This document shows positions 3-24,159 of a stretch of DNA of 50,416 nucleotides, piece after piece. The notes below the pieces were generated by a model. The model was not told the DNA's origin, made no database searches, and worked only from the letters and a program-made list of their open reading frames with translations. The position numbers and the translations under genes were made by a program. Every line of letters begins with the position of its first letter. Positions within the stretch are counted from its first letter, which is position 1. Origin of the DNA: a virus. The stretch covers positions 1-50,416 of the IMG/VR virus record IMGVR_UViG_3300046011_003581; one strand, 5' to 3'.

Positions 3-3000
3 GCGCGCAGAAGCGTTGAGATCGCCAAGCAGCAGGACGCCAGCCGGAAAGCCCAAGAGGACAGGGCGGCAGCGCAGAAGGCGAAGGATGAGTCCGAGAA
101 GGCCGCGCGCGACGACATGGACGGATTCGGGGCTTCACTGGATCCGATGGCGAGGGGCAAGGCGGTAGCGACCCTCAACAGAACTGTGGTTTTCGACGGC
201 ACGGCGATGACCGTCAAGGCTAAGGTGCGCGAGCTTATCGAGTCCGGAGAAGTCCCTTCATCCCGCGAAGAGAACGCCATCAAGGACATGACGAGGGCGC
301 AGTTCAACAGGGCGTCCAACGAAGAACAGGCGGCCCATGCCAAGAAGCAGCGCGAGGCTGGAAAGAAGACCGTCTACACGCTTGGCGGCTACGACATCGG
401 AAAGACCGCATACGACTACGCCAACCACATGATCGGGAAGCGTTCACAGGAATCCACCCCCCGCACACCGGAATCCACCGTTGCCACCCCCACCCCCGCG
501 AACCCCGTCGCCTCCGCGCTCAAGGACGCCGTGGCCGCGCTGGAGAAGGCCGCCGTGGCGATGGAGGGGAGGGAGCCTGCCGCCGCCGCGCCAACCTTCT
601 CAATCGGAGAACTCGTCCGCCTCGGAACGGACAACGGCAAGATCGTCAGCGTCGAGCCGGAAGGGTACTACAACGTCTACTGGTTCGGCCCGCGCCAAGA
701 GTCGATTGTGAACGGGGAGAAACTGGAGAAGCGGACGGATGTGGCTCCGCCCGCCCCCGCCGCGCCCCGCGAGCCCTGGGAGATGACGCGGGCGGAGTTC
801 GCCGGACCCGCCGTTCCGACAACGGAGAAGCGTCAGTGGGAAGTGGAGCATGATCGTTTCGCTGGAAGCGGTAGGCCGTTCACTGCGAACGTCGTTACCG
901 TAACCGCGAACAGCCGCGCAGAAGCGATTCAGCGAGCCGTGGAGTTGAGGGGGCAAGGCAAAATCGGCAAGGTACGCGAGATCGCGCCATTGCGTATCAG
1001 TTCCGACTCGGACGCTCAAGAAGCGCGCGACGCCAAGTTGCGAGATCATGGCGTATTCGTGTCTCGCGCCCTCGCCGCCTCCCGCCCCGTCCCCGCCGCC
1101 GTGCTCGCCGACTACCCGGAGTTGCGCAAGGGCGCCGCGCAGGTGGACGAGACGGTGGACGCAGCGCCGGAAGCGCCCGAGACGCCAGCCGCCGCCCCCT
1201 CCGCCATCGACGACTTCGGCGAGAAGATCGGCGGCGCACGCAAGGACACCGCCGAGAGCACCGGCCCCAAGGTGAAGCGCGAGCCACCGGCCGATACCTC
1301 CCCGGCGTGGAGCAAGCAGTTTGTCGCCGTTGAAAGCGTTGCCACCCCCGGACAGTGGAGCATCATCGACAGGAAATCGAAGTTCGGGTTCGGCCGCATT
1401 GGCAACCGCCGCCTACAGACGTTCTCGTCGCAGGCCGAGGCGGAAGCCGCGATTCCGCTCTTTGCCGTAGCCCAGAACCATGCCGCGCTTCCGAACAGCG
1501 ACGGGACTTACTCCATCCACAAGACCGTCGGAAAGCGCAAGCGTATCAAGGTGGTGAACCGCGACTTCCCATCACGGGAAGAGGCCATGACGTACATGGC
1601 GCTTCACGCCGAGGAATTGCTGAACCTGAAGACCAGTTTCGGGGAGGAGATTCTACCCGTCCCCGAGATCGCCCGACGTGAAGGCGTACCGCGCAGGACC
1701 CAGGACGCCACGCCCGAGATGTTCATGGAGACGTTCGCCCCGCGCGGGATCGAGTTCGGCAACTGGCAGAACCAGGAGGAGCGCCAGTTGGTGATGAACC
1801 ACGCCTACGACGGGTTGCTGGACTTGGCGGATACGCTCAGGGTGCCCGCAAAGGCCCTCATGCTGGACGGAGAACTCGCCATCGCCTTCGGCGCGCGCGG
1901 CCAAGGATTGTCCGGGGCGAAGGCCCACTACGAGCGCGACTACGGCGTCATCAACCTGACCAAGATGAAGGGAGCAGGCTCGCTCGCGCACGAGTGGATG
2001 CACGCGCTGGATCACTACCTCGCCCGGATCGACACGAAGGCACCCTCCGAGAAGAAGCCCAACGAGCGCGGGGACATGGTGTACCCTGACGTGAACACGA
2101 AATATGGGCTCCAGAGCCACGGATCAAGCTACAAGTCGAAGATGCGCACCGAACTGAAGGACGCCTACGACCAACTGGTGAAGTCGCTCTACAAGAAGGC
2201 GAAACAGTACGTAGAGGACACCACCGTAGCTGACAAGTTCCTTTCCATGGCAAAGGAACAGTTGCGCTCCAATCTGGACGAGGCGAGAAGGTCGCTTGCC
2301 CAAGACATGACCGCCTATCATAAGAGCAAGGGCGGTTACAGCTCCAAGCCGCTCAAGTTCTGGGAGCCAGCGCCCGTCGAGAGGTTGGCTGAGTTTGATA
2401 GGATCGCCGATGGCCTCGTTGAAGGCGGGAACCTGGAAACGACATGGAAGGCGGGCGACTACGCAAGCAGTCGCACTTCCACTGGACGATACACGAATGA
2501 TGCGCTGGAGTCGTTGAGCGCCATCTTCAAGGCTACTCGCAACAGTAGCGGATTCCACAAAGAAGGGCATGGCGCGCTCGATAAGATTGCAGCAGCGATG
2601 CGCACTTACCGCGAACGAATCCAGATGATGAACGACGCGCAGACCGGAACCGAGAAGACCAAGCAGGTTACGACCAACTTCGCCATCGAGGCAAAGAAGA
2701 TGGACCAGGCGCGTTCCGGCGACTACTGGAGCGAACCGCACGAGATGACGGCGCGCGCCTTTGCAGCCTATGTCGAGGACCAGATTGCGGCAGCGGGCGG
2801 GCAGAGCGACTTCCTCGTCTACCATGCGCACGGCGGAATCATCCTCCCGATGATCGACGGGTTTGTGGCGCGGCCCTACCCCGAGGGCGAGGAGCGCAAG
2901 ATCATCAACGGGATGTTCGATGCGTTCGTGAAGGAGATCCAGACCCGCCCCACCGAGCGCGGCGTGGCGATGTACGCCCGCAGCGAATCCTACCAAGCCG

Positions 3001-6000
3001 CCGAAGCTGAGTACACTCGCGCCTCCGCAGCATCCGCCGCCGTCCGCATGAGTGAGGACGACGCCATCATGGGCGAACTGGACCCCGAATCGCTGACCGC
3101 AGCGAAGCGACGCCGGTTCCGCCTGCTGACGGATGCGCGCCGTGCAGAGATGGCCGCTCTTGAGAACTGGCTTTCATCCTATGTTGGCGATCAGAACAGC
3201 GCGGCGTTCGAGGTCCGAGGAGAACTCAAGAAGAGCGACGGAACGCCCTACCAACGTGCGGCGTTCTTGCATCGTTCGGTTCGTGAGCCAGGAAGGTGGG
3301 AAGTCCACTACTTTGATACGCTGATTGGCGGGGAATGGTCTCCGTCGGGGCATGACACCTACGACTCCAAATCGGAGACGATCAAGGCCATGGCCGGAAC
3401 GACTGGCAGCGCGATGCGAAACGCCATCTTCGCCGGAGAATGGCGGCCGGCACCGGAGTTGCGGTTCGCCCGCATGGATCCCGCCGGAGAATCAATCCCT
3501 CGCCCTCGCGCCACCCCGCGCCCGATGCCCCGCGCCACCCTTGACAACACCCCCACGCAGGAGCAGACTACGGATCGCGCACAGGAGATCACCTATGACA
3601 CCTGGACAGAACCAAACGCAGACCGAGCAGCCCGCTATCGGGCTCTCAGGGCCGACGGGGTCGATACTCATGCGGCCCGAGGCCAACGGGAAGTTCAGCG
3701 AGCGGCAGAAGCGTTTCGCCGAGGGCGTTACGGGGCGCAAAATGTTCAAGTCGCCGACCTCCTTGAATCGGCCACGAGCGATGCCGCCGCCTACGCCTCC
3801 GCCGCCGGGCGAGAATACGTAGCCCGCTGCGCCTCACGCGGGTACACCGTCGCGTTCATCACGCCCTCCGCAGAGTGGCGCGGCTTCATAGATGGCGTGA
3901 CGCTCACGAGCGCGGATGCCCGAGTCGTTATCGTCGCCAACAACACCTCCGCCACGCGAGCGCACGAGTTCTTCCACGTCCTCGAAATGACGGGGGATGC
4001 GAGCGCGCTGGAGTTACGAGATCGCGTTGACATGGAAAGCGCGCCAGCCCAGGCGTACAAGGCAAGACTCGACGCTCTCGGGGTGCAGCCCGACGCAATC
4101 ACGCAGAGCGACATTGCAGCGGACGTGTTCGCACAGGAGCGCAGGTTCGGCGTGGACGTGGCGGCGGCCGTGGGGGTTGGGGTGGGGGCGCGGGGGGTTG
4201 GGACGCGAGGGGAAGGCGTCGGAGTGCTGACGACGAGTAACGCCACCGTGACGGCTCCTGGGGCGACTTTGCCGCGGTTCATGGTAAAGGCGTACCACGG
4301 GACGCCGCACACCATGGAGCCTGAACCAGGCCACCCGCTCGGACGCTTCCGCAAGGAGAAAGTAGGCACTGGCGAGGGAGCGGCCGCCTACGGATGGGGA
4401 GTCGCATACACAGCACAGAACCGTTCCGTGGCCGACGCATACCGAGAGAATCTTGCGCGTGATCGAACTCGCGTTATGCTTGACGGCAAACCTCTCGGCA
4501 TCGACCAGCGCGCCCCGGTTGCTCAAGCACTCCTAAACGGAGATTCTCCGTCGCGCATCCGCAAAGAGATTCGTGATGCAATTTCGTTCTACTCAAAGGA
4601 AGACCCGAACTCGGAAGACCTGAAAGAGTATCGCGCCTTGGCGGCAGCGTTTGCGGATAATCCCCAGCGCATCTCGGCGGATCGCGGCAACCTCTACCAC
4701 GTCGAACTGGCCTTCGACCCCGAGGACACGCTCGACTGGGACCGCCCCCTGAGCGAGCAGAGCGAGAAGGTGCGGAGGGCGCTGGCCGACCCGATTTTCA
4801 ACGAATTCGCAGAAGGGAAGATCAGTCCCGCACATCGCGGCAGCGACGTGTACGCATTCTTGAGCCGCAAGTTTGGAGATCAGGAAGCGCAGATTTACGA
4901 TCTGCGCGAGGACAAGCAGGCCGCCTCCGAGTACATCGCCTCGCTCGGCATCCGCGGCATCCGGTACGCCGACCAGGGGAGCCGCGCCGACAACTTCACG
5001 CTGCGCCGAAAGGCCAACGGGAAGTACGAACTTGTCAGTGATTCGCAGATGATCCAGTCGCCAGAGTTCGACACGCGAGAACAAGCGACGGAATGGTATC
5101 GCACTCGCAAGACCTACAACTACGTCGTCTTCAACGAGTCCGACATCCGCGTCGTCGGCCGCAACGGCGAGATGATGAGCCCGAGCGACGCCATGGGCGG
5201 CGAGGCGCGCGCGGCGCAAACGTCACGCTCCGCCGCCGTAACCCCCGAGCAGGACCGCGAGTACATGGATGCGGTGGAGAGAGGGGATACGGCGGAAGCG
5301 CAGAGGATGGTGGACGAGGCGGCGCGGGCGGCGGGGTTCACGGTGGGGCCGGTGTGGCATGGAAGCAACACGCTGTTCGACGAGTTCTCTGCCACGTCTG
5401 ACATCGGCTTTCACTTCGGAAGCGAACAGGCTGCGATGGAGCGCAGGACGCGACTTGGATCGGTTGACGAAATCGACATTGAGGACTTGTCGCCATCCGA
5501 AATGGATACGGATTCACTGCGCGTATCACGTGGAGAAATAGGCGGCGATGCTCGATCTGACCTGTATGCCTTGCTGCTGCGCAAGTTGGATTATCCAAAG
5601 CAAGACCTCCGCGCTCAGATTGACGCCATGCCGCCTGCGGAAGTGGAGGAAGCAACAAGCGAATACCGTGCCCGTCCAGACTCCAAGCGGTTTGCTGATC
5701 GAGTCGAAAAAGCGCGCAGCGGCCGAGCCTATCGCGTTGGCGGAACTGGTGTAGAGCGCACCGTGAACACCATGCGCGAAGCGCGGACGGAGCGCGCGCT
5801 TCAGCGGAAGAGACTTTCGACTCCCACCAAGGCGTTCCTGCGCGCAAGCAGAACGCTCAAAATGAGAGACCTTGGCGTATGGCCGTCCAGCGAAATAGCT
5901 TCCGAATCTGGCGTCCCGCTTAACCAATTTCGAGACACGCGCGATTATGAAAGCGTCCGTGAGACCCTTATCCGCAACGGATACGATGCTATTCAGTACG

Positions 6001-9000
6001 AGAACCTTGTGGAAGACTCCGGATCAACTTCGTATATCGTCTTCTCCCCCTCCCAGATCAAATCCGCCGACGCCATCACCTACTCCGACGCCGGCCGCGT
6101 CATCCCGCTGAGTGAGCGGTTCAACGCCGCGACGGGGGATATTCGGTTTGCGAGGCGATCCGCCGTCACAACCATTGATGTTTCAGACCCAAGACTCTAC
6201 GGAGAGGGTCAACTAACGTACACCGGGAAGCCCAGTATGACGACCGGGCCGATAGACGTTATTCTGACCGATGATGGCAGACTGCTCGTTGAAGACGGGT
6301 GGCACAGGATTGAAGACGCCAGGGCCAAAGGCGAGAAGCGAATTGCCGCTCGCGTGGTGAATGAAAACGGAACGCCATTAGAGTCCATCCCTCGCTTCGC
6401 CCGCAGCGAGCCGCCTACCCCCCGCCGTCGCTCCGCGCCCCCGCCTCTCCCCCTATCCCCCGACCGCGCCGCCGCGACCATCCCCGCCGCGGTAGCCGGA
6501 TCCGCCACCGCCGCCGCCTCCACGGAAGGGTGGGACACCATCGCCTCCTTCCAAGACTTCATCGACTCCGTAGAAACCTCGATGCGCGCCTACGACCAGG
6601 AGCGCGTGGACGCCGCGATCCGGGTGACGCAGGCCGTGGAGCGCGACGCCGCCAAGAAGATCGTGGAGCAGACCCGCAGCATCATGCGCGACAAGGTGCG
6701 GGCCGAGCGCGACGCCGGGAAGACCAAGGCCCTCGACTCCGCGAACACCGCGCTCTCCAAGAAGTTCGCCGGCGCCAAGCTCCCCCCGCCGCTGCCGGCG
6801 CGCTCCGTCCCGCAGGCCGTGAACCAGGCGTTCACCGGCGGCAAGGCCGTCATGCGCGGCGTCGCCCTCGACACGTCCATTGACTCCGCCGTGGAGCGTT
6901 CCTTCTGGGAGGCCCTGAAGCGCACTCGATCAAGCCCGCACCCCGGCGACAAGTGGCGCGCGCAGCTCGCCGGGATGATGTCCGTTCTCAAGGCCGTGGA
7001 TGCCGAGACCCGCGGGCGCACCCCGGAGCAGGTCAAGGAGATCGTCGCGAAGCGCATCGCTGGGCTGTTCGGCGAGGAGCGCCGCCACATGATGTCGGCC
7101 GCGGCGCGCGCGAACCCGACCGCCATGCTGGCCGCGATTCGCAAGTATGCGACACAGCACGTCGCCGACTACTACGCCGGGCCGCTCGCCAAGATGATCG
7201 CCCGCTACTCCCCGCCGCGCATCCTGGCGCAGTTCACGGACGCGCCCAAGGCGAAGCTGACCGCGCTTCTCGGGCGGCTCCCGGCGATCCCCTCCGGGAT
7301 GAATGCCGCCGCGATGGAGAAGGCCATCCTGAACAAGCTGGCGACGAATCTCGACGCAAGGGGCAACGTGACCCCCGAGAGCGACCTGACCGCCCTGATC
7401 GACGCGCACGACGCCTTCGCTGAGGCCGTGGCGGAGGACAAGCGGCTCCGGGAGTATCTGACGCAGGCTTGGCGCGGAATACGCGCCAGCATGGCCGAGC
7501 ACGCCGCAGACGACATCATCGGCAGTGGAGTCCCGCCGATCTCCGGCACGGACGGCATGGACCCGCGTAGCCGGGGATGGTGGCGCTCGTTCTTTGCGGA
7601 CGACACCTACACCTACGCCAACGTGATCTTCGCCCTGAGCGGCGGGCGCAAGGACTCATGGCTCTACAAGCACTTCGTGGCGCAGCCGCGCTTGGCGGTG
7701 GAACGCGCCACCGCGAGGAAGAATGCCGCCATTGACGCGCTGACTCACATCCTGCGCGACGAGAAGATCAACATGCTGGAGATGGGCGGGCGCCAGAAGC
7801 CCTACGCCATGCCCGGCGGGCAGACACTCCACCTGACGGACTTCCAGCGCATCGGCCTGTGGAACGGGCTGGGCGGGCTCGTGGACAACTCCGCGCTGGC
7901 GACCTATGACCCCGATTGGGCGGCATCGTACATGAACGGGGCCGGGCTCTTGAGCCGCTACAGCGCCACCACGGGCGCGCGCATCAAGCCGCAGGACCAG
8001 ATGGAAGCCATGGACATCCTGACGACGATCTTCAAGGACATGCCCGAGAGCCACAAGAAGCTCGGGCGAGCCATGAAGGATTCGATGCAGTCCAACACGG
8101 CCGCGGCGAACGACGCCAGCCGGCGGCTATTCGGGCGCTCCCTGTTCATCATCCCGAACTACTGGACGATCGCGCGCCAGTACACCGACACCCCCGGCTC
8201 GGTATCCTCCGGGACGTTCCTGCGCACCCTCCTGGACTCCATTGGGATCACCAAGGACCGCACCGACAACACGCTCGATCTGACCATCGACGACGCATGG
8301 CAGACCTTCTCCCGCCACGCGCAGCAACTCTCCCTGTTCACGGAGTTCGCGGAGCAACAGCACAACCTCATGGCTGTTCTCGCGGATGCGAACGTGCGCC
8401 GCGCCATGTCGGAGAGGTTCGGGACGCAGATCGAGAAGGACATCAACAACACGCTGATAGAGGTTTCCGGGCTCGCGCGCGGCGCCGAGGAAGATCAGAG
8501 CACGGTTGACCGCGCCGTGACCAGCGTGCTCGGGAACGTCGTCACCTCGATGCTGTGGGGTAGTGGATCAGTCTACTCCAAGAATCGCCTGCTGGGCGGC
8601 TGGACGCTGGCGCTGCAACTGATGAAGCAGCGCCCGGCGCTCGGGCTGGGATTGCTGGCCCGCATGACGATCCCGAAGTCGATCACCTTTGGGACGCAGA
8701 CGCGCGCCATCCGCCAGGCCCTTATCGAGCACGGGTACTTCGGCGACCGCTGGGGCCTGCGCGCCGAGGAAGTGTTCTCCCAGGTCTACCACCGCGACGC
8801 GGTTCTACGCCCGACGGCTACGCCGATGCCGCTGCGCAAGGCCCTCCGAGTCAAGCGTTCCGTTGACCAGTGGGGCATCCGCCCGCAGGCCCGCGCCGAG
8901 ATGCGCACGGCCATCATGGCGATTCAGGCCATGGTGAACGACGGCATGAGCATGGGCGAGGCCGTGGACGCCACCGCCGATGCGTTCCGCGAGGTGCAGA

Positions 9001-9764
9001 ACCCGTCCACGCCCTTCGAGCACACGCGGGAATACCGATCCATCCTGCGCAACACCTGGAAGAAGGTCGTCTACCCGTTCACCGGGCAGCTTTTCGTGAC
9101 GGCCAACATCGTTCGGCAGGACATGATCGCTCTCGCCGGCGCCAAGGCCCGCGGGGAACCCACCGCGGCGCTCCGGGCGCGCTCCGCTATCGGGTTGGCG
9201 CAGATGATCCTGAACATCGCTGGCTCCTACGGAATCGGCATGGTCTTCGCGTCCATGCTTCGCGGGCGGATCCCGTTCACCGGTGACGACGAAGACAAGG
9301 AGCGCGACGCCGCCTGGGCCGTGATGCAGCAGGCGAGCGACCTTCTGGACATCATCCGCCCCGGACTTGGGCGCATGATTATCGGAGTCGCCGAAACCAC
9401 GTTCTCAAAGCGCGTGACACCCCGCGAGGACAGCATCATCGGGCGGCAGGGCGCGACGCTGGTGCAGGGAATCCGGCAGGTTGCCATGGAGCCCGCGCGG
9501 GCTGAGGCGGCCGGGCGCACCGTCAATGAGGACCGCGTTCTTGACGGCTGGCGGAAACTGGCTGAGAGCGCCAGCGCATTGGCTCTCCCTCCCTTCTATG
9601 GAGCGTCGAGGATCGCACGGCAGGCCGCCGGGGCGTACAAGATCGCGGCCGGCGAAGTCGAGCCCACACCCCCCGTTGACGCCTCCCAACCCCGTCGTTA
9701 CAGTAGGACCGAGAACAGAACCCGCGCCATCCCGCGCCGGTACACGCGCCAGTCGCAAGAGTGA
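3..9764 (+). CDS. Giant polyvalent (LPD-type) phage protein, 5' end outside window
   Basis: The frame is open from the window edge, so the N-terminus is missing; the first internal ATG is at 117, has no ribosome binding site, and the residues before it look coding. Numbering from that ATG (3,215 residues): an LPD1-like zinc-peptidase segment with HEWMH at 625-629; a second HExxH (HEFFH) at 1283-1287; an ADP-ribosyltransferase-like domain from about 1392 (YHGTP motif) to 1675; a second one from about 1746 (WHGS motif), ending near 2012 with the TGDIRFAR linker common in such proteins; a ParB-like DGWHRI segment near 2050-2080; a charged helical region near 2160-2230; and an LPD38-like C-terminal region around 2985-3058 with hydrophobic helices. 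Proline-rich linkers join the parts. Giant proteins of this kind usually travel in the virion and enter the host with the DNA. The tail genes at the far end of the window fit that role. The exact targets are unknown. Confidence 0.9.
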   Translation, partial: ARRSVEIAKQQDASRKAQEDRAAAQKAKDESEKAARDDMDGFGASLDPMARGKAVATLNRTVVFDGTAMTVKAKVRELIESGEVPSSREENAIKDMTRAQFNRASNEEQAAHAKKQREAGKKTVYTLGGYDIGKTAYDYANHMIGKRSQESTPRTPESTVATPTPANPVASALKDAVAALEKAAVAMEGREPAAAAPTFSIGELVRLGTDNGKIVSVEPEGYYNVYWFGPRQESIVNGEKLEKRTDVAPPAPAAPREPWEMTRAEFAGPAVPTTEKRQWEVEHDRFAGSGRPFTANVVTVTANSRAEAIQRAVELRGQGKIGKVREIAPLRISSDSDAQEARDAKLRDHGVFVSRALAASRPVPAAVLADYPELRKGAAQVDETVDAAPEAPETPAAAPSAIDDFGEKIGGARKDTAESTGPKVKREPPADTSPAWSKQFVAVESVATPGQWSIIDRKSKFGFGRIGNRRLQTFSSQAEAEAAIPLFAVAQNHAALPNSDGTYSIHKTVGKRKRIKVVNRDFPSREEAMTYMALHAEELLNLKTSFGEEILPVPEIARREGVPRRTQDATPEMFMETFAPRGIEFGNWQNQEERQLVMNHAYDGLLDLADTLRVPAKALMLDGELAIAFGARGQGLSGAKAHYERDYGVINLTKMKGAGSLAHEWMHALDHYLARIDTKAPSEKKPNERGDMVYPDVNTKYGLQSHGSSYKSKMRTELKDAYDQLVKSLYKKAKQYVEDTTVADKFLSMAKEQLRSNLDEARRSLAQDMTAYHKSKGGYSSKPLKFWEPAPVERLAEFDRIADGLVEGGNLETTWKAGDYASSRTSTGRYTNDALESLSAIFKATRNSSGFHKEGHGALDKIAAAMRTYRERIQMMNDAQTGTEKTKQVTTNFAIEAKKMDQARSGDYWSEPHEMTARAFAAYVEDQIAAAGGQSDFLVYHAHGGIILPMIDGFVARPYPEGEERKIINGMFDAFVKEIQTRPTERGVAMYARSESYQAAEAEYTRASAASAAVRMSEDDAIMGELDPESLTAAKRRRFRLLTDARRAEMAALENWLSSYVGDQNSAAFEVRGELKKSDGTPYQRAAFLHRSVREPGRWEVHYFDTLIGGEWSPSGHDTYDSKSETIKAMAGTTGSAMRNAIFAGEWRPAPELRFARMDPAGESIPRPRATPRPMPRATLDNTPTQEQTTDRAQEITYDTWTEPNADRAARYRALRADGVDTHAARGQREVQRAAEAFRRGRYGAQNVQVADLLESATSDAAAYASAAGREYVARCASRGYTVAFITPSAEWRGFIDGVTLTSADARVVIVANNTSATRAHEFFHVLEMTGDASALELRDRVDMESAPAQAYKARLDALGVQPDAITQSDIAADVFAQERRFGVDVAAAVGVGVGARGVGTRGEGVGVLTTSNATVTAPGATLPRFMVKAYHGTPHTMEPEPGHPLGRFRKEKVGTGEGAAAYGWGVAYTAQNRSVADAYRENLARDRTRVMLDGKPLGIDQRAPVAQALLNGDSPSRIRKEIRDAISFYSKEDPNSEDLKEYRALAAAFADNPQRISADRGNLYHVELAFDPEDTLDWDRPLSEQSEKVRRALADPIFNEFAEGKISPAHRGSDVYAFLSRKFGDQEAQIYDLREDKQAASEYIASLGIRGIRYADQGSRADNFTLRRKANGKYELVSDSQMIQSPEFDTREQATEWYRTRKTYNYVVFNESDIRVVGRNGEMMSPSDAMGGEARAAQTSRSAAVTPEQDREYMDAVERGDTAEAQRMVDEAARAAGFTVGPVWHGSNTLFDEFSATSDIGFHFGSEQAAMERRTRLGSVDEIDIEDLSPSEMDTDSLRVSRGEIGGDARSDLYALLLRKLDYPKQDLRAQIDAMPPAEVEEATSEYRARPDSKRFADRVEKARSGRAYRVGGTGVERTVNTMREARTERALQRKRLSTPTKAFLRASRTLKMRDLGVWPSSEIASESGVPLNQFRDTRDYESVRETLIRNGYDAIQYENLVEDSGSTSYIVFSPSQIKSADAITYSDAGRVIPLSERFNAATGDIRFARRSAVTTIDVSDPRLYGEGQLTYTGKPSMTTGPIDVILTDDGRLLVEDGWHRIEDARAKGEKRIAARVVNENGTPLESIPRFARSEPPTPRRRSAPPPLPLSPDRAAATIPAAVAGSATAAASTEGWDTIASFQDFIDSVETSMRAYDQERVDAAIRVTQAVERDAAKKIVEQTRSIMRDKVRAERDAGKTKALDSANTALSKKFAGAKLPPPLPARSVPQAVNQAFTGGKAVMRGVALDTSIDSAVERSFWEALKRTRSSPHPGDKWRAQLAGMMSVLKAVDAETRGRTPEQVKEIVAKRIAGLFGEERRHMMSAAARANPTAMLAAIRKYATQHVADYYAGPLAKMIARYSPPRILAQFTDAPKAKLTALLGRLPAIPSGMNAAAMEKAILNKLATNLDARGNVTPESDLTALIDAHDAFAEAVAEDKRLREYLTQAWRGIRASMAEHAADDIIGSGVPPISGTDGMDPRSRGWWRSFFADDTYTYANVIFALSGGRKDSWLYKHFVAQPRLAVERATARKNAAIDALTHILRDEKINMLEMGGRQKPYAMPGGQTLHLTDFQRIGLWNGLGGLVDNSALATYDPDWAASYMNGAGLLSRYSATTGARIKPQDQMEAMDILTTIFKDMPESHKKLGRAMKDSMQSNTAAANDASRRLFGRSLFIIPNYWTIARQYTDTPGSVSSGTFLRTLLDSIGITKDRTDNTLDLTIDDAWQTFSRHAQQLSLFTEFAEQQHNLMAVLADANVRRAMSERFGTQIEKDINNTLIEVSGLARGAEEDQSTVDRAVTSVLGNVVTSMLWGSGSVYSKNRLLGGWTLALQLMKQRPALGLGLLARMTIPKSITFGTQTRAIRQALIEHGYFGDRWGLRAEEVFSQVYHRDAVLRPTATPMPLRKALRVKRSVDQWGIRPQARAEMRTAIMAIQAMVNDGMSMGEAVDATADAFREVQNPSTPFEHTREYRSILRNTWKKVVYPFTGQLFVTANIVRQDMIALAGAKARGEPTAALRARSAIGLAQMILNIAGSYGIGMVFASMLRGRIPFTGDDEDKERDAAWAVMQQASDLLDIIRPGLGRMIIGVAETTFSKRVTPREDSIIGRQGATLVQGIRQVAMEPARAEAAGRTVNEDRVLDGWRKLAESASALALPPFYGASRIARQAAGAYKIAAGEVEPTPPVDASQPRRYSRTENRTRAIPRRYTRQSQE

Positions 9765-11799: not shown

Positions 11800-12075
11800 A
11801 TGACCAAAGTGAATCAACTGTGTCACCAAATCGCGGCGGCGCGCAGCATCGTGCGCGAGCAACTGGAGCGCGCGGCGGCGCTGGAGGCGCAGATAGCCGA
11901 CATCGTGGGCGTCAGCGTGCTTGGCGGCTACGTCCGCGTCGCCGTCGAGGACTTCGAGATTGAAGTCGCGAGGGCGCGAAACCACTCGGCGCACGTCTAC
12001 ATGACGCCGCGCAGTCCGATGGTGGGGGAGTTGGCCGGAGCCGCGGGAGTGGCGACGGCGAGTGCGGAGGGGTGA
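11800..12075 (+). CDS. Hypothetical protein
   Basis: 91 residues starting one base after the lysis gene stop. The first 35 residues form a helix (possible coiled coil, many Ala, Arg, Glu and Gln); a short beta segment follows. It has no transmembrane segment and no recognised family. It ends 10 bases before the tmRNA gene and may belong to the lysis unit. Confidence 0.6.
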   Translation: MTKVNQLCHQIAAARSIVREQLERAAALEAQIADIVGVSVLGGYVRVAVEDFEIEVARARNHSAHVYMTPRSPMVGELAGAAGVATASAEG

Positions 12076-12085
12076 TTCAGTCTAA

Positions 12086-12422
12086 GGGCGCGAAATGGTT
12101 TCGACGTTGACAGATAAGCGACAGTTGCGCGTAGGGGTTGGTCGGATGGCCCCTTTATCAATCCGACCGAACCGCAAAGGCCAAGCCGATGCGCCTCGCG
12201 GCCTAACCGCCGCGATAGGAAACCGCCTGGCCCCCCGGCTGGACGGAAGTACGACTCGCTTCCGGGGGAATGAGCAGGGGTTTGTCCGTAGGCCGTCAGG
12301 AAACGGACTGGTGGAGGGCGTTGAATCTAACGCCCCTGGTTGCCGGACCCCAACCGGATACGCGCGTAGATGCTGGCGTGGACTGTTGGCGGACGGGGGT
12401 TCGATTCCCCCCGCGTCCACCA
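12086..12422 (+). ncRNA. ssrA: Phage-encoded one-piece tmRNA
   Basis: A 337-base tmRNA. The acceptor stem is GGGCGCG (12086-12092) with CGCGTCC (12412-12418), seven pairs including one G-U, followed by an encoded ACCA (12419-12422). The T arm is GGGGG-TTCGATT-CCCCC (12395-12411). The 5' region has the AATGGTTTCGACG block typical of tmRNA. A long-range helix pairs GCGCGTA (12127-12133) with TACGCGC (12359-12365). An H-type pseudoknot sits before the tag: AGGGG (12133-12137) with CCCCT (12150-12154), interlocked with GGTCGGAT (12140-12147) and ATCCGACC (12161-12168). The tag frame starts at GCA 12174 and ends at TAA 12204-12206, giving AKAKPMRLAA, with the LAA end recognised by ClpXP-type proteases. 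Further hairpins follow, such as GTCCGT/ACGGAC. Like host tmRNA it would need alanyl-tRNA synthetase and SmpB; no smpB gene is in the window. No tRNA genes are near. Confidence 0.95.
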
Positions 12423-12457
12423 TTCAGAAACGGGATCAACAGGAAGGAGTGCGTTCC

Positions 12458-12721
12458 GTGGCGTGGTTCAGGGGTAGTTCAATCGACACCAAGGGCGGGC
12501 ATGAGATTGCCGAGACAGGATGTGGGCTGCGACACCTTCCATCTTGCCCAAAATGCACGAACGGGACGTTGACCGTTCATGGTTTCGATAGCGTCAGCGT
12601 TACGTGCCCGGAATGCGGCATGTGTTTTTCAGTGGAAGAACTTGTGCGATCCAGAGTGTTGCCTGCGTATGTGTTGAAGCAAGTAGCGCCCACAGCGGCG
12701 CAATGGAGGAAGAACCAATGA
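12458..12721 (+). CDS. Small zinc-ribbon protein
   Basis: 87 residues from GTG at 12458, placed by the AGGAAGGAG ribosome binding site eight bases earlier. The same frame is open back through the tmRNA, but that part is not coding. Two CxxC pairs (CPKC near residue 33 and CPEC near 53) form a four-cysteine zinc ribbon; a short helical tail follows. It is a common type of small phage protein of unknown role, possibly nucleic-acid binding. It overlaps the RecT-like gene by four bases (ATGA), so the two are probably translated together. Confidence 0.75.
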   Translation: MAWFRGSSIDTKGGHEIAETGCGLRHLPSCPKCTNGTLTVHGFDSVSVTCPECGMCFSVEELVRSRVLPAYVLKQVAPTAAQWRKNQ

Positions 12722-15849: not shown

Positions 15850-16415
15850 GAAATATCACCATAACGAATACCATCCCTCAGAAGGAGTCTTTTCAGAGAC
15901 GCCTTGACGCCATCAACGAGGATCATATTGCATGGTTCTCCGGATGGATGTCTGCCGATGGATCAATACGCATAGAAAACGATACGGTGAGCATACGATT
16001 CGTCATCTGCGACAAAGACCCTCTTGTTATGTTTTCCGAGTTGTTCGGCAATGCGGTTGGTGGGCCTTACCCTCCGAGCGGTCTAGGAAAACGCGACCGT
16101 TACGAGTGGAGTATTAGGGGGTGGAAAGCGGCTCGTATATTGGAACGATGTCTTCCTTGGTTGTCACATAGATATGCAGATAGAGCACGCCGCGGAATCT
16201 CAGTCGCACCACTGCATCGTCCTACGAGGAAACTTACACTAACGCAAGTAGCACAAATCAAACATGAACTGATGAATGGACGGCATGGTGTCGGATGTCG
16301 TCTCGCGAAGCGATACAACATCACGGACGGCATGGTTAGCGCCATTAAACATGGTCGGTCATGGAGATACGTCAACGCACAATACGCGGAGCAAGAATTG
16401 CAGGAGGCGCAATAA
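15846..16415 (+). CDS. LAGLIDADG-type homing endonuclease, free-standing
   Basis: 189 residues from GTG 15846 (GTGA overlap with the previous stop). WFSGWMSADG at residues 30-39 is a single LAGLIDADG-like motif with the catalytic acidic residue in place; a beta-rich DNA-binding region follows, and the C-terminus has an HTH-like stretch (LAKRYNITDGMVSAIKHG) typical of target-binding tails. One motif means it would act as a dimer. The gene is visibly more AT-rich than its neighbours and uses codons they avoid, which indicates recent arrival. It could nick or cut intronless relatives at this site and spread by repair. No intron borders are seen. Confidence 0.8.
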   Translation: MRNITITNTIPQKESFQRRLDAINEDHIAWFSGWMSADGSIRIENDTVSIRFVICDKDPLVMFSELFGNAVGGPYPPSGLGKRDRYEWSIRGWKAARILERCLPWLSHRYADRARRGISVAPLHRPTRKLTLTQVAQIKHELMNGRHGVGCRLAKRYNITDGMVSAIKHGRSWRYVNAQYAEQELQEAQ

Positions 16416-17212
16416 TGTCAGGAACCATTTATATTGCTGGAGCCATGCGAAACATGCCCATGTTTAACTTTCCCGCGTTCGACGACGCTCGGGACCGCCT
16501 GCGCGCCGCCGGATGGGAGGTTGCATCCCCGGCCGACATGGATCGCCAAGCAGGATTCGACCCGGCCGACCTGCCGACGACGCACGACTGGTCCATCATC
16601 CCCGACGGCTTCGACTTCAACGCCGCCTTCGAGCGTGACATCCAGGCGGTGCGCGAGTGCGACTTCATCTACATGCTCGACGGGTGGGAGAAGTCTAAGG
16701 GAGCGCGGGCAGAGAAGGCCGTCGCGGAGTGGCTAGGGAAGACGATCATGTACCAGTCCTCGCCCGCGGCGTCCGCAGACTCCACATCCAAGCCGGCAAA
16801 TCCCAAAGACATCGCTGGATCAAACAAGCTCCCCCTCCACCTCTGGCCATCAACCGCCACCGCCCTCGGCTGCGTGGGGATGCTCAACGGCGCCCTCAAG
16901 TACGGCCGCGCCAACTTCCGCGCTATCGGCGTGCGCGCGTCGATCTACGTCGATGCCTGCAATCGCCACCTCAACGCATGGTTCGAGGGAGAGGAGTGCG
17001 ACCCCGACGACGGCGTTCCGCACCTGGCGGCCGCGCTCTCGTGCCTGGCGATCATCGTGGACGCCGAGGCCGCTGGGAAGCTGACGGATGATCGCATGAC
17101 TCCTGGCGGGTATCGCGCGCACGTGAATGCGATGACTCCGCACGTGGCGCGACTGAAGGCGCTGCACGCCGGGAAGAACCCGAAGCACTACACGATTGAC
17201 GCAGTGATATAA
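16415..17212 (+). CDS. DUF4406 plus dATP/dGTP diphosphohydrolase-like fusion
   Basis: 265 residues; ATG 16415 follows AGGAGG and overlaps the preceding TAA by one base. Residues 1-110 read as DUF4406, the nucleoside 2-deoxyribosyltransferase-like fold (IYIAGAMRNMP start, CDFIYMLDGWEKSKGA). Residues 125-230 match the MazG-like domain known as dATP/dGTP diphosphohydrolase N-terminal (former DUF5664): NPKD, LPLHLWP, ALKYGRANFR, ASIYVDACNRHLNAWFEG, DDGVPHLAAAL and LTDDR. That domain clears selected dNTPs and occurs in phages with altered nucleotide pools. A fusion of both domains points to dNTP remodelling. No PurZ-like gene is present in the window, so 2-aminoadenine DNA is not supported. Confidence 0.8.
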   Translation: MSGTIYIAGAMRNMPMFNFPAFDDARDRLRAAGWEVASPADMDRQAGFDPADLPTTHDWSIIPDGFDFNAAFERDIQAVRECDFIYMLDGWEKSKGARAEKAVAEWLGKTIMYQSSPAASADSTSKPANPKDIAGSNKLPLHLWPSTATALGCVGMLNGALKYGRANFRAIGVRASIYVDACNRHLNAWFEGEECDPDDGVPHLAAALSCLAIIVDAEAAGKLTDDRMTPGGYRAHVNAMTPHVARLKALHAGKNPKHYTIDAVI

Positions 17213-19008: not shown

Positions 19009-19199
19009 AGGTGCTCTGCGACCGATGGCCCTGCCCAAATCACACCTGCGCCCACGCGCACCCGCATGAGCCGTTCCATAACTGCAAACATGCAGGCTGC
19101 GCGGCCATGCAGGTCAACGCGGAGTGCGTCCGCTGCGACGACCCAGCACAGGAATTGACAACACCCACGCCCGCGGGAAGCCACCCATGCCCACGCTGA
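19005..19199 (+). CDS. Cys/His-rich small protein
   Basis: 64 residues, ATG 19005 overlapping the previous TGA. Eight cysteines and six histidines are packed into residues 5-47 (CDRWPCPNHTCAHAHPHEPFHNC, then C and CVRC), so a metal-binding mini-protein is likely. Its 3' end carries a third, decayed copy of the gene-end repeat and overlaps the RecD2 N-terminal gene by 13 bases. Confidence 0.55.
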   Translation: MKVLCDRWPCPNHTCAHAHPHEPFHNCKHAGCAAMQVNAECVRCDDPAQELTTPTPAGSHPCPR

Positions 19200-20059
19200 A
19201 CGTCACCATCACCCGCGTCGCGTACCCGCCGTCAACCACCGTCACGGATGGTGGGGAAACTTGGTACATCTTGATCTGCGACGCGGGGACTTGCAAAGGG
19301 CGGATGCCGTGGCGGCCGAAGGACGGCGAGCGGCTGATCCTGCAAGGGGAGTGGAGCGTTTATCAAGGATCTAAAGAATTCTCGTTCTCCGGCGCCGCCA
19401 TCGACGTTCCCGCCAACCCCCGCGACCAACTCCACTACGTCTGCGAGCGCACCAGCGGGCTCGGGCCGGCCGCGGAGGCGCTGATCTGGCAGACGGCGGG
19501 CGCGGCGTGGCAGACCATCGCCCCCGGAGCGGTTCCGCGCCTCCACGGGAAGCTGTACGAAGAGTTCCGGCTACAGATCGAGGCAATGCTCCAGAAAAGC
19601 GTGGAGGCCGGGGCCGTCGCCTCGCTCATGGGCAAGGGCTGCACGATGAACATGGCGTGCAAGGCGTGGTCAAAGTGGGGGCTGGCGACTCTCGGAGTCG
19701 TCCAGGCGGACCCGTTCCGGTTGGCCGAACTCGACGGCTACTCCTTCCGCGATGTGGACCAGAAGGTCCGCACCCACTACGGGATCGGCGACGACGACAA
19801 GCGGCGGATCCGCGCGGGCGTGCTGTACTCGCTGCGGAGGCTCACGGACCCTGGGGATACGGTGGTGGCGTGGGACGACCTGTATCGGCAGGCGTGCGGC
19901 GTGCTGTGCGGCTACGCGGATTTGGTGAGCGAATGCACGGGGGAGTTGTTCGGCGAGGGCGCGATCCGGGCGTTTGGGGAGGCGGGGGAGGGCGTCGCGC
20001 TGGCGTCGGATTACGAGTGCGAGGAGAGGGTGTGGGAGTGGGCGACGAGGGAGGGATGA
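19187..20059 (+). CDS. RecD2 N-terminal module (OB plus HhH), encoded separately
   Basis: 290 residues from ATG 19187. The order of parts is that of the non-helicase half of RecD2: an N-terminal beta-barrel (GRMPWRPKDGERLILQGEW, EFSFSGAAIDVP), a helical segment, and helix-hairpin-helix repeats (MNMACKAWSKWG, DPFRLAELDGYSFRDVDQKV, IRAGVLYSLRRLTDPGDTVV). The ending ALASDYECEERVWEW matches the last stretch before the helicase core in full-length RecD2. No Walker motif is present here; the helicase half is a separate gene at 22766-23977, and 290 plus 403 residues approaches the usual length of about 700. Most likely the two chains assemble into one 5'-3' helicase acting in recombination. Confidence 0.75.
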   Translation: MPTLNVTITRVAYPPSTTVTDGGETWYILICDAGTCKGRMPWRPKDGERLILQGEWSVYQGSKEFSFSGAAIDVPANPRDQLHYVCERTSGLGPAAEALIWQTAGAAWQTIAPGAVPRLHGKLYEEFRLQIEAMLQKSVEAGAVASLMGKGCTMNMACKAWSKWGLATLGVVQADPFRLAELDGYSFRDVDQKVRTHYGIGDDDKRRIRAGVLYSLRRLTDPGDTVVAWDDLYRQACGVLCGYADLVSECTGELFGEGAIRAFGEAGEGVALASDYECEERVWEWATREG

Positions 20060-20988
20060 TGAATGAGTTGGCTCTTTTCGCAGGCGCTGGTGGCGGCATA
20101 CTCGGGGGGCACTTGCTCGGATGGCGCACCGTCTGCGCCGTTGAACGTGATGCCTACGCCGCGGCCGTTCTGGCGCAACGACAAAACGATGGATGTCTTG
20201 AGCCGTTCCCCGTTTGGTCTGACGTGGAAACCTTTGACGGCCGCCCGTGGCGAGGAATTGTTGACATCGTTTCGGGCGGCTTTCCCTGCACGGACATCTC
20301 CTGCGCCGGAAAAGGGGCTGGGATCGAAGGCGAGGAAAGCGGACTCTGGCGCGAAATGTGGCGAATTATTGGCGAGGTACAACCGCGCTTCGTCCTCGTG
20401 GAAAACTCTCCAATGCTCACTATTCGGGGAGGGGTCCGAGTCGTTGGCGACCTTGCCGCGCTGGGGTACGATGCGAGATGGGGCGTTGTATCGGCTGCCG
20501 ACGCCATATGGTTTGAGTGCCTTTCGAGAGATGGTGTCCCGGCGCTTGACCATCTGCGGGAGCGAATGTGGATCGTCGCAGAGGATGCCGACCGCGAAGG
20601 CAACGGAGGCAGGGCCGGACTACGCGAAGATGGACAGGAGCAAGACGGGAATCAGCCTACAGACGGCCGTGGCGATGACCCAGCGGGCGCCGACTCCATC
20701 GGCAAGCAGTTTCGATTCAACGCGACCAAATCAGAAGGGCGGAGAGAAGCTGATCGAGGCGCTGGCGAGAATACCGACGCAACGGGCACCGACGCCGCGC
20801 TCGGAAGACTCGCAGTGCGCTGGTGGCCATCACGGAACGCCGGATACCATGGTCGCGTTCACGAGGTTGCCGACGGCCTGCGCGAACGAGGATGCGGCGG
20901 GGACTCCGAACGGCAAGATGCAGAGGATGCTCGGCAACTGCCCGGAAGTCAGACACTCGGACCCGGCTGGTGGGCAGTTGAACGCTGA
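20059..20988 (+). CDS. C5-cytosine DNA methyltransferase, C-terminus cut short
   Basis: 309 residues. ATG 20059 follows GAGGGAGGG; ATG 20056 is also possible. Motif I FAGAGGGILGGHLLGW binds SAM; GGFPC carries catalytic Cys77; ENS at 115-117 is the motif VI glutamate block; LRERMWIVA at 166-174 is motif VIII. The variable region is rich in Asp/Gly/Arg. The reading frame stops at GWWAVER, where relatives continue into a short segment and the terminal LGNAxVP motif. That missing motif lies further on at about 21617-21690, but in the other frame and beyond an HNH gene. So this protein lacks motif X unless frameshifting, splicing or a second chain supplies it. It would methylate cytosine in the phage genome against host restriction. 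Confidence 0.8.
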   Translation: MNELALFAGAGGGILGGHLLGWRTVCAVERDAYAAAVLAQRQNDGCLEPFPVWSDVETFDGRPWRGIVDIVSGGFPCTDISCAGKGAGIEGEESGLWREMWRIIGEVQPRFVLVENSPMLTIRGGVRVVGDLAALGYDARWGVVSAADAIWFECLSRDGVPALDHLRERMWIVAEDADREGNGGRAGLREDGQEQDGNQPTDGRGDDPAGADSIGKQFRFNATKSEGRREADRGAGENTDATGTDAALGRLAVRWWPSRNAGYHGRVHEVADGLRERGCGGDSERQDAEDARQLPGSQTLGPGWWAVER

Positions 20989-21703
20989 GTGGGAGTCGTG
21001 GTTTATGAACTTCCCGGTTAAGTGGCTTTCACTTGACGCCATGCTATCGCCTGTGCTAATGTCGTACTATGAAAAGAACATTAGACCCAGACAGGCCGTG
21101 TGCGGCGTGCGGTGCAACTCTTCACAGAAAACGCTTTGGGGAGAGATTAGAGGAACGTGGTTGTTTCCTTCGGCGCAAGTATTGCGACCGGCTGTGCATG
21201 GCGGCGGCCATGACGCAGGATCAACCAACGCTCACGGCGATCAAGGCGAGAAACAAGCACCTTCGCGGGCCGCTATGCCAGGAGTGCGGGACGGTGGCAC
21301 AGTTGCAGATACACCACATCGACGGAAACAAGTTCAACAACAACGCATCAAACCTGATGACCTTGTGCGCCTCTTGTCACTCGAAGTGGCATTGGGAGAA
21401 TGGGAAGAGGATGCCGAATCGTCGTGCGGCTTGCTCAATTTGTGGAACGCCTGCGCGGAAATTGGGATACTGTCAAAAGCACTATCAACGCTTCAGGAAG
21501 TATGGCGATCCGCGAGTAACGAAGAAAAAGAATGGATTGCGGTACGAGCTTGTGGAGGATCATGGTTCGGACAGGAAATCCCAGTTCCGCGCCTGACCCA
21601 CAACATGCCCAACAGAGTGGACCGATGTAAAGCATTGGGAAATGCTCAAGTTCCGGCTGTGGTGCGCCTCGCATGGGAGATGCTCGCGCCAAAACTTCAA
21701 TGA
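20063..21703 (+). CDS. Second, overlapping frame of the methyltransferase locus (546 codons)
   Basis: This frame is +1 relative to the methyltransferase and is open for 1,641 bases. Its ATG (20063) lies seven bases after the same GGGAGGG that serves the methyltransferase. It reads as a recognisable phage protein type: APSAPLNVMPTP, SRSPFGLTWKPLT, SSSWKTLQCSLF, LPRWGTMRDG, then MPTA/TPTP-like repeats and GGQLNAEWESWFMNFPVKW near 20973-21025. I remember deposited phage proteins with these signatures but cannot check them. After that it runs through the HNH region and ends with NRVDRCKALGNAQVP and AWEML, which is motif X of C5-methyltransferases. It may be a dual-coded partner, the C-terminal half reached by frameshift, or partly chance in GC-rich DNA. 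Confidence 0.5.
   Translation: MSWLFSQALVAAYSGGTCSDGAPSAPLNVMPTPRPFWRNDKTMDVLSRSPFGLTWKPLTAARGEELLTSFRAAFPARTSPAPEKGLGSKARKADSGAKCGELLARYNRASSSWKTLQCSLFGEGSESLATLPRWGTMRDGALYRLPTPYGLSAFREMVSRRLTICGSECGSSQRMPTAKATEAGPDYAKMDRSKTGISLQTAVAMTQRAPTPSASSFDSTRPNQKGGEKLIEALARIPTQRAPTPRSEDSQCAGGHHGTPDTMVAFTRLPTACANEDAAGTPNGKMQRMLGNCPEVRHSDPAGGQLNAEWESWFMNFPVKWLSLDAMLSPVLMSYYEKNIRPRQAVCGVRCNSSQKTLWGEIRGTWLFPSAQVLRPAVHGGGHDAGSTNAHGDQGEKQAPSRAAMPGVRDGGTVADTPHRRKQVQQQRIKPDDLVRLLSLEVALGEWEEDAESSCGLLNLWNACAEIGILSKALSTLQEVWRSASNEEKEWIAVRACGGSWFGQEIPVPRLTHNMPNRVDRCKALGNAQVPAVVRLAWEMLAPKLQ
21069..21596 (+). CDS. HNH homing endonuclease inside the methyltransferase locus
   Basis: 175 residues in the third frame, so three frames are open here. 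An N-terminal cysteine pair (CAAC) and further CxxxC pairs precede the HNH core: CQECG, LQIHHIDGNKFNNNASNLMTLCASCHSKWH, which has the His-His-Asn-His arrangement and zinc-binding cysteines. A second zinc-like segment follows (CSICGTPARKLGYCQKHYQRF), as in many phage HNH proteins. The DNA is less GC-rich than its surroundings. It separates the methyltransferase body from its terminal motif X. Its last codons overlap the start of that terminal segment. Ribosome binding site weak. Confidence 0.85.
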   Translation: MKRTLDPDRPCAACGATLHRKRFGERLEERGCFLRRKYCDRLCMAAAMTQDQPTLTAIKARNKHLRGPLCQECGTVAQLQIHHIDGNKFNNNASNLMTLCASCHSKWHWENGKRMPNRRAACSICGTPARKLGYCQKHYQRFRKYGDPRVTKKKNGLRYELVEDHGSDRKSQFRA

Positions 21704-22268: not shown

Positions 22269-22533
22269 AGCAACCCGATCAAACGACACCCACCCCGCAC
22301 CCCAACACACCGGGATTGATAGCAGCAAGACGCTGTGCCCGTCGTGCGACGCCGTGGTGGGGACGCTTCAAGACTTCTGCCACGAGTGCGGCCGCACCCT
22401 GCGCCCGATCCCCCACAAGCATGTCGAGGATTGCGTCCAGGGGCTCAACGTCAAACTGGCAACGCGGTTCGGACACCTGCGCGAGATGTGTCACTACAGC
22501 GACGAGATGGAAGGAGCGTTTGAGAGAGAATGA
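22258..22533 (+). CDS. Zinc-ribbon protein
   Basis: 91 residues from GTG 22258 behind GAGGGAGG, overlapping the TSCPD gene by 11 bases. CPSCDAVVGTLQDFCHECG (residues about 27-45) is a clear zinc ribbon with two CxxC pairs. The rest is polar with several His. No known family beyond zinc ribbon; probably a nucleic-acid-binding accessory protein. Confidence 0.65.
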   Translation: MKRKATRSNDTHPAPQHTGIDSSKTLCPSCDAVVGTLQDFCHECGRTLRPIPHKHVEDCVQGLNVKLATRFGHLREMCHYSDEMEGAFERE

Positions 22534-22769
22534 AGACGATCTACTACATGGCGGTATGCAAGCCCAAGGAGTCGAAGACGTGGCTCCCGATGATGGTGGA
22601 GATGGCGAAGGTGGGGAGAACCCACATCCTGCGCGCGACGGCGCAAGCGTGCAAACAGGACGCGGAGAAACGCATGACAGAAGCCTGGATCGCCGCGGAA
22701 TCGCCGGCCAACAGGTACTCCAGCGCGTCGCAATGGGAGGTTGCCGCCGCGGCGGTAGTAATCGAATGA
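22530..22769 (+). CDS. Hypothetical protein
   Basis: 79 residues, ATGA overlap with the previous gene and four-base overlap with the helicase gene. The sequence suggests a beta-alpha-beta-like small fold (MKTIYYMAVCKPK, then two helices). No motif recognised. Its coupling to the helicase gene suggests co-translation. Confidence 0.6.
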   Translation: MKTIYYMAVCKPKESKTWLPMMVEMAKVGRTHILRATAQACKQDAEKRMTEAWIAAESPANRYSSASQWEVAAAAVVIE

Positions 22770-23977
22770 ACCTCGACCCCTCCCAACGCGCCGCCGTCGC
22801 CGCCGCCACGTCACGCCCGTTCAGCATCATCACGGGCGGAGCGGGGTGCGGCAAAACCGTCCTCATCGGCGAGATCACGCGCGCCCTCGAAGCGCGCGGC
22901 GAGATCGTCGCCCTGGCCGCGTTCGCCGGGAAGGCCGCCGCCCGCATCCGGGAGGCGTGCGCGCACCCCGCGTCCACGATCCACCGGCTCCTGATGTACG
23001 ACGGAAACACCTTCAACCTGGACTCCCTCGCCGACCGCACCGTGATCGTGGACGAGGCCAGCATGATCGACGCCGGGCTCCTGGCGGAACTCGTCAAGCG
23101 CGCCCCGCGGCGGCTCGTCCTTGTGGGGGACGAAGCCCAGCTTCCGCCCGTCGGCCGCGGGCAGCCGTTCCACGACATCATCGCCCTGCGCCCCGCCCTC
23201 GTCTCCAACCTCACCACCTGCTACCGCGCCACGGAAGCCGTCTTCCAAGCCGCCACCGCCATCCGCCACGGCGGCCGCCCCGCGCAGCAGGCCACCAGCG
23301 CGGGAGAATACTGGTGCATGACGAACACGGGCGACGCCAAGCGCACGCAGGCCGCCATCCTCGACCTCGTCACCGGCCCCGCCGCTGGATGGGACTGGAG
23401 CAAGGACATCATCCTCGTCGCCCGCAACGGGGAGTCCGACGACGAGCCCGCCACCGTGCGCGGGATCAACCGCGCCATCGTGGACGCCGTCTCTCCCCGC
23501 GACTGGAGCAACCCCAAGGCGCGATTCAAGCCCGGAGATCGCGTGATCAATGTGCAAAACATCCCGAGAATCGACCAATGGAACGGCAGTACTGGCACCA
23601 TCCACGCCGTTGACATCGACGGCGGCATCTGGGTCCGCACTGACATCCCCGCAATCGACTGGAACAAGACGAAGGACGAGCGCAACCCCGTCTACACCGA
23701 TCACGTCCTGTTCGGCAAGGATGTGCGGCGGCATCTGCAACTCGCCTACGCGCTCACGGTTCACAAATCCCAGGGCTCGCAGTATCGCCATGTGATCTTC
23801 GCCGGCTTCAACCGCGACCTGTTCGGACTCCTAGACCGATCCCTCCTCTACACCGCCGTCACCCGCACCCGCGAGGCGTGCATGGTGATGGGCGAGCTTT
23901 CGGCGATCTACAGCGCCATCGACAAGGTGGCGAAGAAGAGGACTGTGATGCAGGAATTGGCGAGAGGAGCGGCATGA
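22766..23977 (+). CDS. RecD/RecD2-type SF1B helicase core
   Basis: 403 residues from ATG 22766 (ATGA overlap); the longer upstream frame is ruled out by the genes before it. Walker A GGAGCGKT at about 24-31, motif II VIVDEASMID near 93-102, motif III LVGDEAQLPPV near 119-129, an SH3-like insert around 235-300, motif VI LTVHKSQGSQY near 331-341, and LYTAVTRTRE near 361-370. These are the RecD/RecD2 signatures, and the protein starts exactly at the LDPSQR segment where the helicase core begins in full-length RecD2. The N-terminal half of RecD2 is encoded at 19187-20059. ATP-driven 5'-3' unwinding during replication or recombination is expected. Confidence 0.9.
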   Translation: MNLDPSQRAAVAAATSRPFSIITGGAGCGKTVLIGEITRALEARGEIVALAAFAGKAAARIREACAHPASTIHRLLMYDGNTFNLDSLADRTVIVDEASMIDAGLLAELVKRAPRRLVLVGDEAQLPPVGRGQPFHDIIALRPALVSNLTTCYRATEAVFQAATAIRHGGRPAQQATSAGEYWCMTNTGDAKRTQAAILDLVTGPAAGWDWSKDIILVARNGESDDEPATVRGINRAIVDAVSPRDWSNPKARFKPGDRVINVQNIPRIDQWNGSTGTIHAVDIDGGIWVRTDIPAIDWNKTKDERNPVYTDHVLFGKDVRRHLQLAYALTVHKSQGSQYRHVIFAGFNRDLFGLLDRSLLYTAVTRTREACMVMGELSAIYSAIDKVAKKRTVMQELARGAA

Positions 23978-24036
23978 ACGACGACGCCGCCCAGCATGAA
24001 AATCCTTTCAGTTGCACTCACGGACAAACCAAGTGA
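23974..24036 (+). CDS. Possible 20-codon leader peptide
   Basis: ATG 23974 overlaps the helicase stop (ATGA) and has GAGAGGAGCGGC before it; the frame ends at TGA 24034-24036. The peptide is MNDDAAQHENPFSCTHGQTK. It ends 10 bases before the first arm of two interlocking stems, the geometry of a translated attenuator leader. It may equally be a chance frame; no run of one amino acid is present. Confidence 0.4.
   Translation: MNDDAAQHENPFSCTHGQTK
23997..24010. promoter_or_regulatory. 14-bp palindrome TGAAAATCCTTTCA
   Basis: An imperfect palindrome with TGAAA/TTTCA arms. An almost identical copy (TGAAAATCATTTCA) stands at 27736-27749 before the terminase genes. Two copies at two operon starts, in AT-poor surroundings, suggest an operator or a promoter element for a phage regulator. 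Confidence 0.45.
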
Positions 24037-24046
24037 CTCTACCCTC

Positions 24047-24122
24047 GCGATGAGAAGCGTAAACGAACATTTTAGACACCCGCACCGGAGTCACGCCTGC
24101 TTGTGCTCGCGTTTCTCATCGC
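24047..24122 (+). promoter_or_regulatory. Candidate antiterminator stem
   Basis: GCGATGAGAAGCG (24047-24059) pairs with CGTTTCTCATCGC (24110-24122): 13 pairs, one of them G-U. It encloses the left arm of the following terminator, so the two structures interlock and probably exclude each other. This is the layout of an attenuator or riboswitch controlling the primase gene. No known riboswitch class is recognised. Confidence 0.5.
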
Positions 24123-24142
24123 ACGGTGCGGGTGTCTTTTTT
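24074..24142 (+). terminator. Intrinsic terminator upstream of primase
   Basis: AGACACCCGCACCG (24074-24087) and CGGTGCGGGTGTCT (24124-24137) form a perfect 14-bp stem followed by a T run (24137-24142). The 36-base loop is unusually long and contains one arm of the competing stem. It ends 17 bases before the primase start, so it can block primase expression rather than just close the upstream operon. Confidence 0.75.
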
Positions 24143-24159
24143 GTCTCGTAGGAGCAAAC

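Follow-up and report, generated by a model that had tools for sequence, protein, structure and literature searches.

A tailed phage was confirmed to carry a complete gene for tmRNA (ssrA), the RNA that frees stalled ribosomes and tags their unfinished proteins. The gene lies in a 50,416-base stretch of DNA, called the window here, which is a whole IMG/VR virus record with 64% GC and PHROG matches to a terminase, a portal-type connector, and a major capsid protein. ARAGORN, run on the whole window of 50,416 bases, called a single one-piece tmRNA gene at 12086-12422 on the plus strand and no tRNA. An Infernal search with the Rfam tmRNA model RF00023 covered the identical coordinates end to end (model positions 1-374) with a score of 106.5 bits (E 1e-40), against a gathering score of 47 bits, and no other Rfam family, riboswitches included, rose above the gathering threshold within the window. 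The initial annotation had proposed a full phage-carried tmRNA with its own tag, and the proposal is borne out by ARAGORN, by RF00023, by the structure, and by paired changes across a clade of related genes. It appears very likely from the sequence that the gene encodes a functional one-piece tmRNA of the tailed phage. The gene, its parts, and its two neighbors are laid out as follows.

11800 to 12075, plus strand: upstream neighbor, a 91-aa protein with function unassigned, ending 10 nt before the tmRNA
12086 to 12422, plus strand: one-piece tmRNA (ssrA) gene, 337 nt, CCA encoded (ARAGORN, RF00023)
12086 to 12092, plus strand: 5' acceptor strand GGGCGCG with G3 of G3-U70 (from the sequence; pairs intact in all clade rows)
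12106 to 12113, plus strand: outer long-range helix, 5' strand GTTGACAG, partner CTGTTGGC near the 3' end
12134 to 12169, plus strand: pseudoknot 1 (PK1), H-type, with S1 AGGGG/CCCCT and S2 GGTCGGAT/ATCCGACC
12174 to 12206, plus strand: alternative tag frame AKAKPMRLAA and stop (ARAGORN, initial annotation)
12180 to 12206, plus strand: most likely tag frame GCC AAG CCG ATG CGC CTC GCG GCC TAA, AKPMRLAA and stop (spacing to PK1, A at -4)
12390 to 12422, plus strand: 3' tRNA-like end, with T stem-loop GGGGG-TTCGATT-CCCCC, 3' acceptor CGCGTCC, A73, and CCA
12458 to 12721, plus strand: downstream neighbor, an 87-aa CxxC zinc-ribbon-like protein, 35 nt past the tmRNA (sub-threshold Pfam match only)

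The acceptor stem of the RNA pairs GGGCGCG with CGCGUCC, followed by ACCA, and contains a G3-U70 wobble; A73 and the encoded CCA are present in the sequence. G3-U70 and A73-CCA are the determinants for alanine charging. The TGGTTTCGAC block is also present. As RNA, PK1 consists of AGGGG/CCCCU and GGUCGGAU/AUCCGACC, and it was called again by an independent scan. The distal pseudoknot region (PK2-PK4) aligned poorly to RF00023.

Related tmRNAs form a clade whose members all reside in viral contigs: L079 and the near-identical L155, L153, L154, L106, and L166. They are 60-71% identical to the window tmRNA, and every one of them scores above the Rfam gathering score. A maximum-likelihood tree of 19 tmRNAs recovered this clade of six viral-contig tmRNAs with 89% ultrafast bootstrap; its bacterial sample was tiny, limited to E. 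coli and a Thermus plasmid among viral contigs, and the tree thus shows grouping among the sampled tmRNAs. L079 and L106 were recovered by searching viral contigs with a short pattern, CCCCGCGTCCACCA, which among the matches listed gave mostly noise; L165, from the same hairpin pattern, was considered as a clade member and was placed outside by the tree. The acceptor sequence GGGCGCG does not serve as a clade marker either, because L081 and L128 have it yet fall outside and L166 falls inside without it. Searches with the capsid and portal proteins found a fragment (L146) that encodes proteins 100% identical to those of the window and does not span the tmRNA, and the records of distant capsid relatives gave no tmRNA match.

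Several of these genes are called poorly by ARAGORN. It made no call at L079:5571-5904, L155:2394-2727, or L106:11145-11500, though Rfam matches all three end to end. At L154:1172-1525 and L166:10774-11104, both on the minus strand and both matched end to end by Rfam, the ARAGORN tags misfit the homologous frame. The Thermus tmRNA in the tree sample (L163:1085-1428; 191.6 bits, tag ANKQLALAA) lies on the 56-kb plasmid NZ_CP092444.1 of Thermus sp. NEB1569, where no feature is listed in the gene table of PLSDB, a table without RNA genes.

Evidence for conservation of the fold comes from an alignment of six rows representing five distinct clade sequences. The test structure was written on the window sequence and comprised the acceptor, the T arm, the long-range helix, PK1, and two hairpins, with 50 named pairs, every one of which is formed by the window sequence. 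Across the clade alignment 94% of cells pair, and 18 of the 50 pairs are changed on both sides, a number reached in none of 500 shuffles. When partners were slid by 1-3 columns, pairing fell to 36-47%; part of this difference is expected because the structure was derived from the window, but the double changes lie in other rows. In PK1, 7 of 13 pairs are changed on both sides while the paired cells amount to 100% in S1 and 92% in S2, and in the outer long-range helix 4 of 8 pairs show such changes. G3-U70 is present in all five distinct clade rows, and the acceptor is likewise kept. The compensatory change fits selection on a folded RNA. In other words, because the acceptor is kept while 18 of 50 pairs covary, selection appears to act on the RNA itself and not on an att-site remnant or a decaying piece of host DNA. 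Two open reading frames overlapping the gene, 12095-12721 on the plus strand and 12082-12423 on the minus strand, are probably by-products of the 64% GC content, the RNA structure being what is conserved.

Integration of phages and islands at ssrA does occur (PMC9004378, PMC12656738), and the gene could in principle be a recent capture of a host ssrA or a remnant of integration there, with no role of its own. This origin is very improbable. The gene is complete from its 5' to its 3' end, and all of the nearest relatives found come from viral contigs. An exact search of 84,980 species genomes with the 32 nt at the 3' end, a strict pattern by which diverged bacterial relatives could be missed, gave no match, and a looser, still strict, two-ended pattern (genes of ~326-356 nt) also gave none in those genomes. 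No integrase was seen among the window products scanned in PHROGs and Pfam, which were a subset of the ORFs.

Where does the tag begin? Two alanine codons, GCA (12174) and GCC (12180), share a frame and a stop, so that the peptide from GCC (AKPMRLAA) is two residues shorter than the one from GCA. An A at -4 precedes both candidates (GAACC for GCA, CAAAG for GCC). The initial annotation had read the tag as AKAKPMRLAA; ARAGORN also chose the GCA start, and GCA is a common resume codon. However, GCA lies only 4-5 nt past PK1, and GCC lies 10-11 nt past it. One script, applied to twelve other tmRNAs including those of E. coli and the Thermus plasmid, measured 9-15 nt, mostly 11, between the last base of PK1 and the resume codon called by ARAGORN. 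In E. coli the distance is 11 nt, and A86, at -4, is needed (PMC2481249). The clade relatives also mostly fit a spacing of 10-11 nt; in L079 the script gave only 7 nt, and its S2 stem is longer. A start at GCA is therefore unlikely. AKPMRLAA is preferred because its spacing from PK1 is that of most relatives and of other tmRNAs, and GCC (12180) is the probable resume codon. Thus, the frame, the stop, and the LAA end of the earlier reading stand, and its first two codons probably lie upstream of the resume codon.

The tags of the relatives, read by homology, are AYEYKTAA in L153, DEALDMAA in L154, GKVIAFPAPMAQAA in L106, AYSDKLAA in L166, and DNEYKLAAA in L079; these starts were picked by eye from the listed frames and are the ones we infer. 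The initial annotation had raised the case of a tag frame closed in close relatives, and in the clade members read by homology the frame is open and ends in -AA and a stop. The clade tags differ from ANDENYALAA, and the window tag retains the C-terminal LAA.

The tmRNA fills a tight intergenic space, with 10 nt and 35 nt to the flanking genes. The 91-aa neighbor matched nothing in Pfam or PHROGs. Just upstream of the tmRNA there is also an SLT-domain lysozyme-like gene, and a RecT-like gene follows the 87-aa CxxC gene. Elsewhere, the window encodes a 3215-aa polyvalent-type giant protein (117-9764) that contains an LPD1 domain and matches ART-PolyVal weakly, and a single frame (16361-17212) with DUF4406/deoxyribosyltransferase-like and dATP/dGTP diphosphohydrolase-like parts. 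RecD2-like helicase halves occupy separate frames (19124-20059 and 22316-23977), between which lies a DNA methyltransferase-like gene (20063-21703).

A consensus scan, whose reach is limited to sigma-70-type promoters, found no such promoter and no clear terminator nearby. The tmRNA would be transcribed within the rightward transcript of the neighboring genes, which host nucleases would trim to the mature RNA. The host alanyl-tRNA synthetase would charge it with alanine via G3-U70. Since the window has no match to the SmpB profile PF01668, which was positive in 10 control genomes, host SmpB would be needed; together with host EF-Tu, it would bring the tmRNA to those ribosomes of the infected cell that are stalled on broken mRNAs. 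Translation would then resume at GCC (12180), so that AKPMRLAA follows the alanine carried by the tmRNA itself, and the LAA terminus may direct the product to ClpXP-type proteases of the host. The likely benefit to the phage would be added capacity to rescue ribosomes while mRNAs are heavily degraded during infection.

The initial annotation had suggested that the phage may label stalled proteins differently from its host, or may replace a host tmRNA that it disables. A different role in the latter sense would be that of a dominant competitor, in which the phage tmRNA diverts SmpB or stalled ribosomes away from the tmRNA of the host and lowers host-style tagging. An RNA of the mycobacteriophage DS6A type, which has the tmRNA-like domain only, was described as a strong tmRNA inhibitor that perhaps titrates SmpB (PMC4131195), and the clade tags are unlike ANDENYALAA. 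However, the window tmRNA keeps the pseudoknot and a whole tag frame that terminates in AA, unlike the truncated DS6A-type RNA, and looks built to tag; furthermore, no gene in the window was recognized as targeting or disabling host tmRNA. Competition is extremely improbable, and ribosome rescue is the role proposed here.

The phages that carry these tmRNAs have proteins that for the most part do not match those of the window. Their records range from 47% to 64% GC, and outside the tmRNA region only a few single window proteins match L106, L154, or L155. L079/L155 and L153 are related phages, with 49-82% amino-acid identity over many genes. The L079 tmRNA sits between two genes whose counterparts in L153 are separated by other sequence, and the L153 tmRNA (23844-24173) is ~6 kb from those counterparts. 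The different loci are explained both by relocation and by separate acquisition, and the branches inside the clade are not supported well enough (63-78%) to decide between them. One tentative model, to which we give somewhat less than even chances, is that of a phage-resident tmRNA lineage, an independent cargo gene that passes between otherwise unrelated phages and moves loci in related ones while its tags diverge from that of the host.

Phage tmRNAs are already known; the window tmRNA has a distinct tag and clade. A tmRNA was reported in 402 of 18,146 phage genomes (2.3%, or ~2%; PMC9004378), and the initial annotation was fair in calling them rare. Phage ssrA genes and the truncated DS6A form have already been catalogued, and the window resembles mycobacteriophages Bxz1, Wildcat, and others and Bacillus phage G in having a complete ssrA in a phage genome (PMC4131195). 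A search of 50,697 phage records gave only short 3'-end matches, none covering most of the window tmRNA, which is therefore not a close copy of any in that collection. Like the tmRNAs of OM43 phage Melnitz and marine phages, whose sequences place them in a different lineage from the host tmRNA (PMC9004378), it is phage-borne. The Melnitz tmRNA is permuted and in two pieces, with a glutamine riboswitch (PMC9004378), whereas the window tmRNA is in one piece with no riboswitch at the gathering threshold. With E. coli ssrA (RF00023) it has in common G3-U70, A73-CCA, the T arm, the long-range helix, PK1, the A at -4, and an LAA-ending tag. It differs in sequence (45% identity over aligned positions), in length (337 nt against 363 nt), in its tag (AKPMRLAA against ANDENYALAA), and in having no SmpB gene beside it.

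These findings add a clade of tmRNAs that in this analysis was confined to viral contigs and whose tags depart from the standard one, and they indicate that ARAGORN can miss or misread such genes. If the divergence of the tags mirrors the use of different proteases or adaptors of the host, these RNAs would make it possible to test what ribosome rescue by phages is for.
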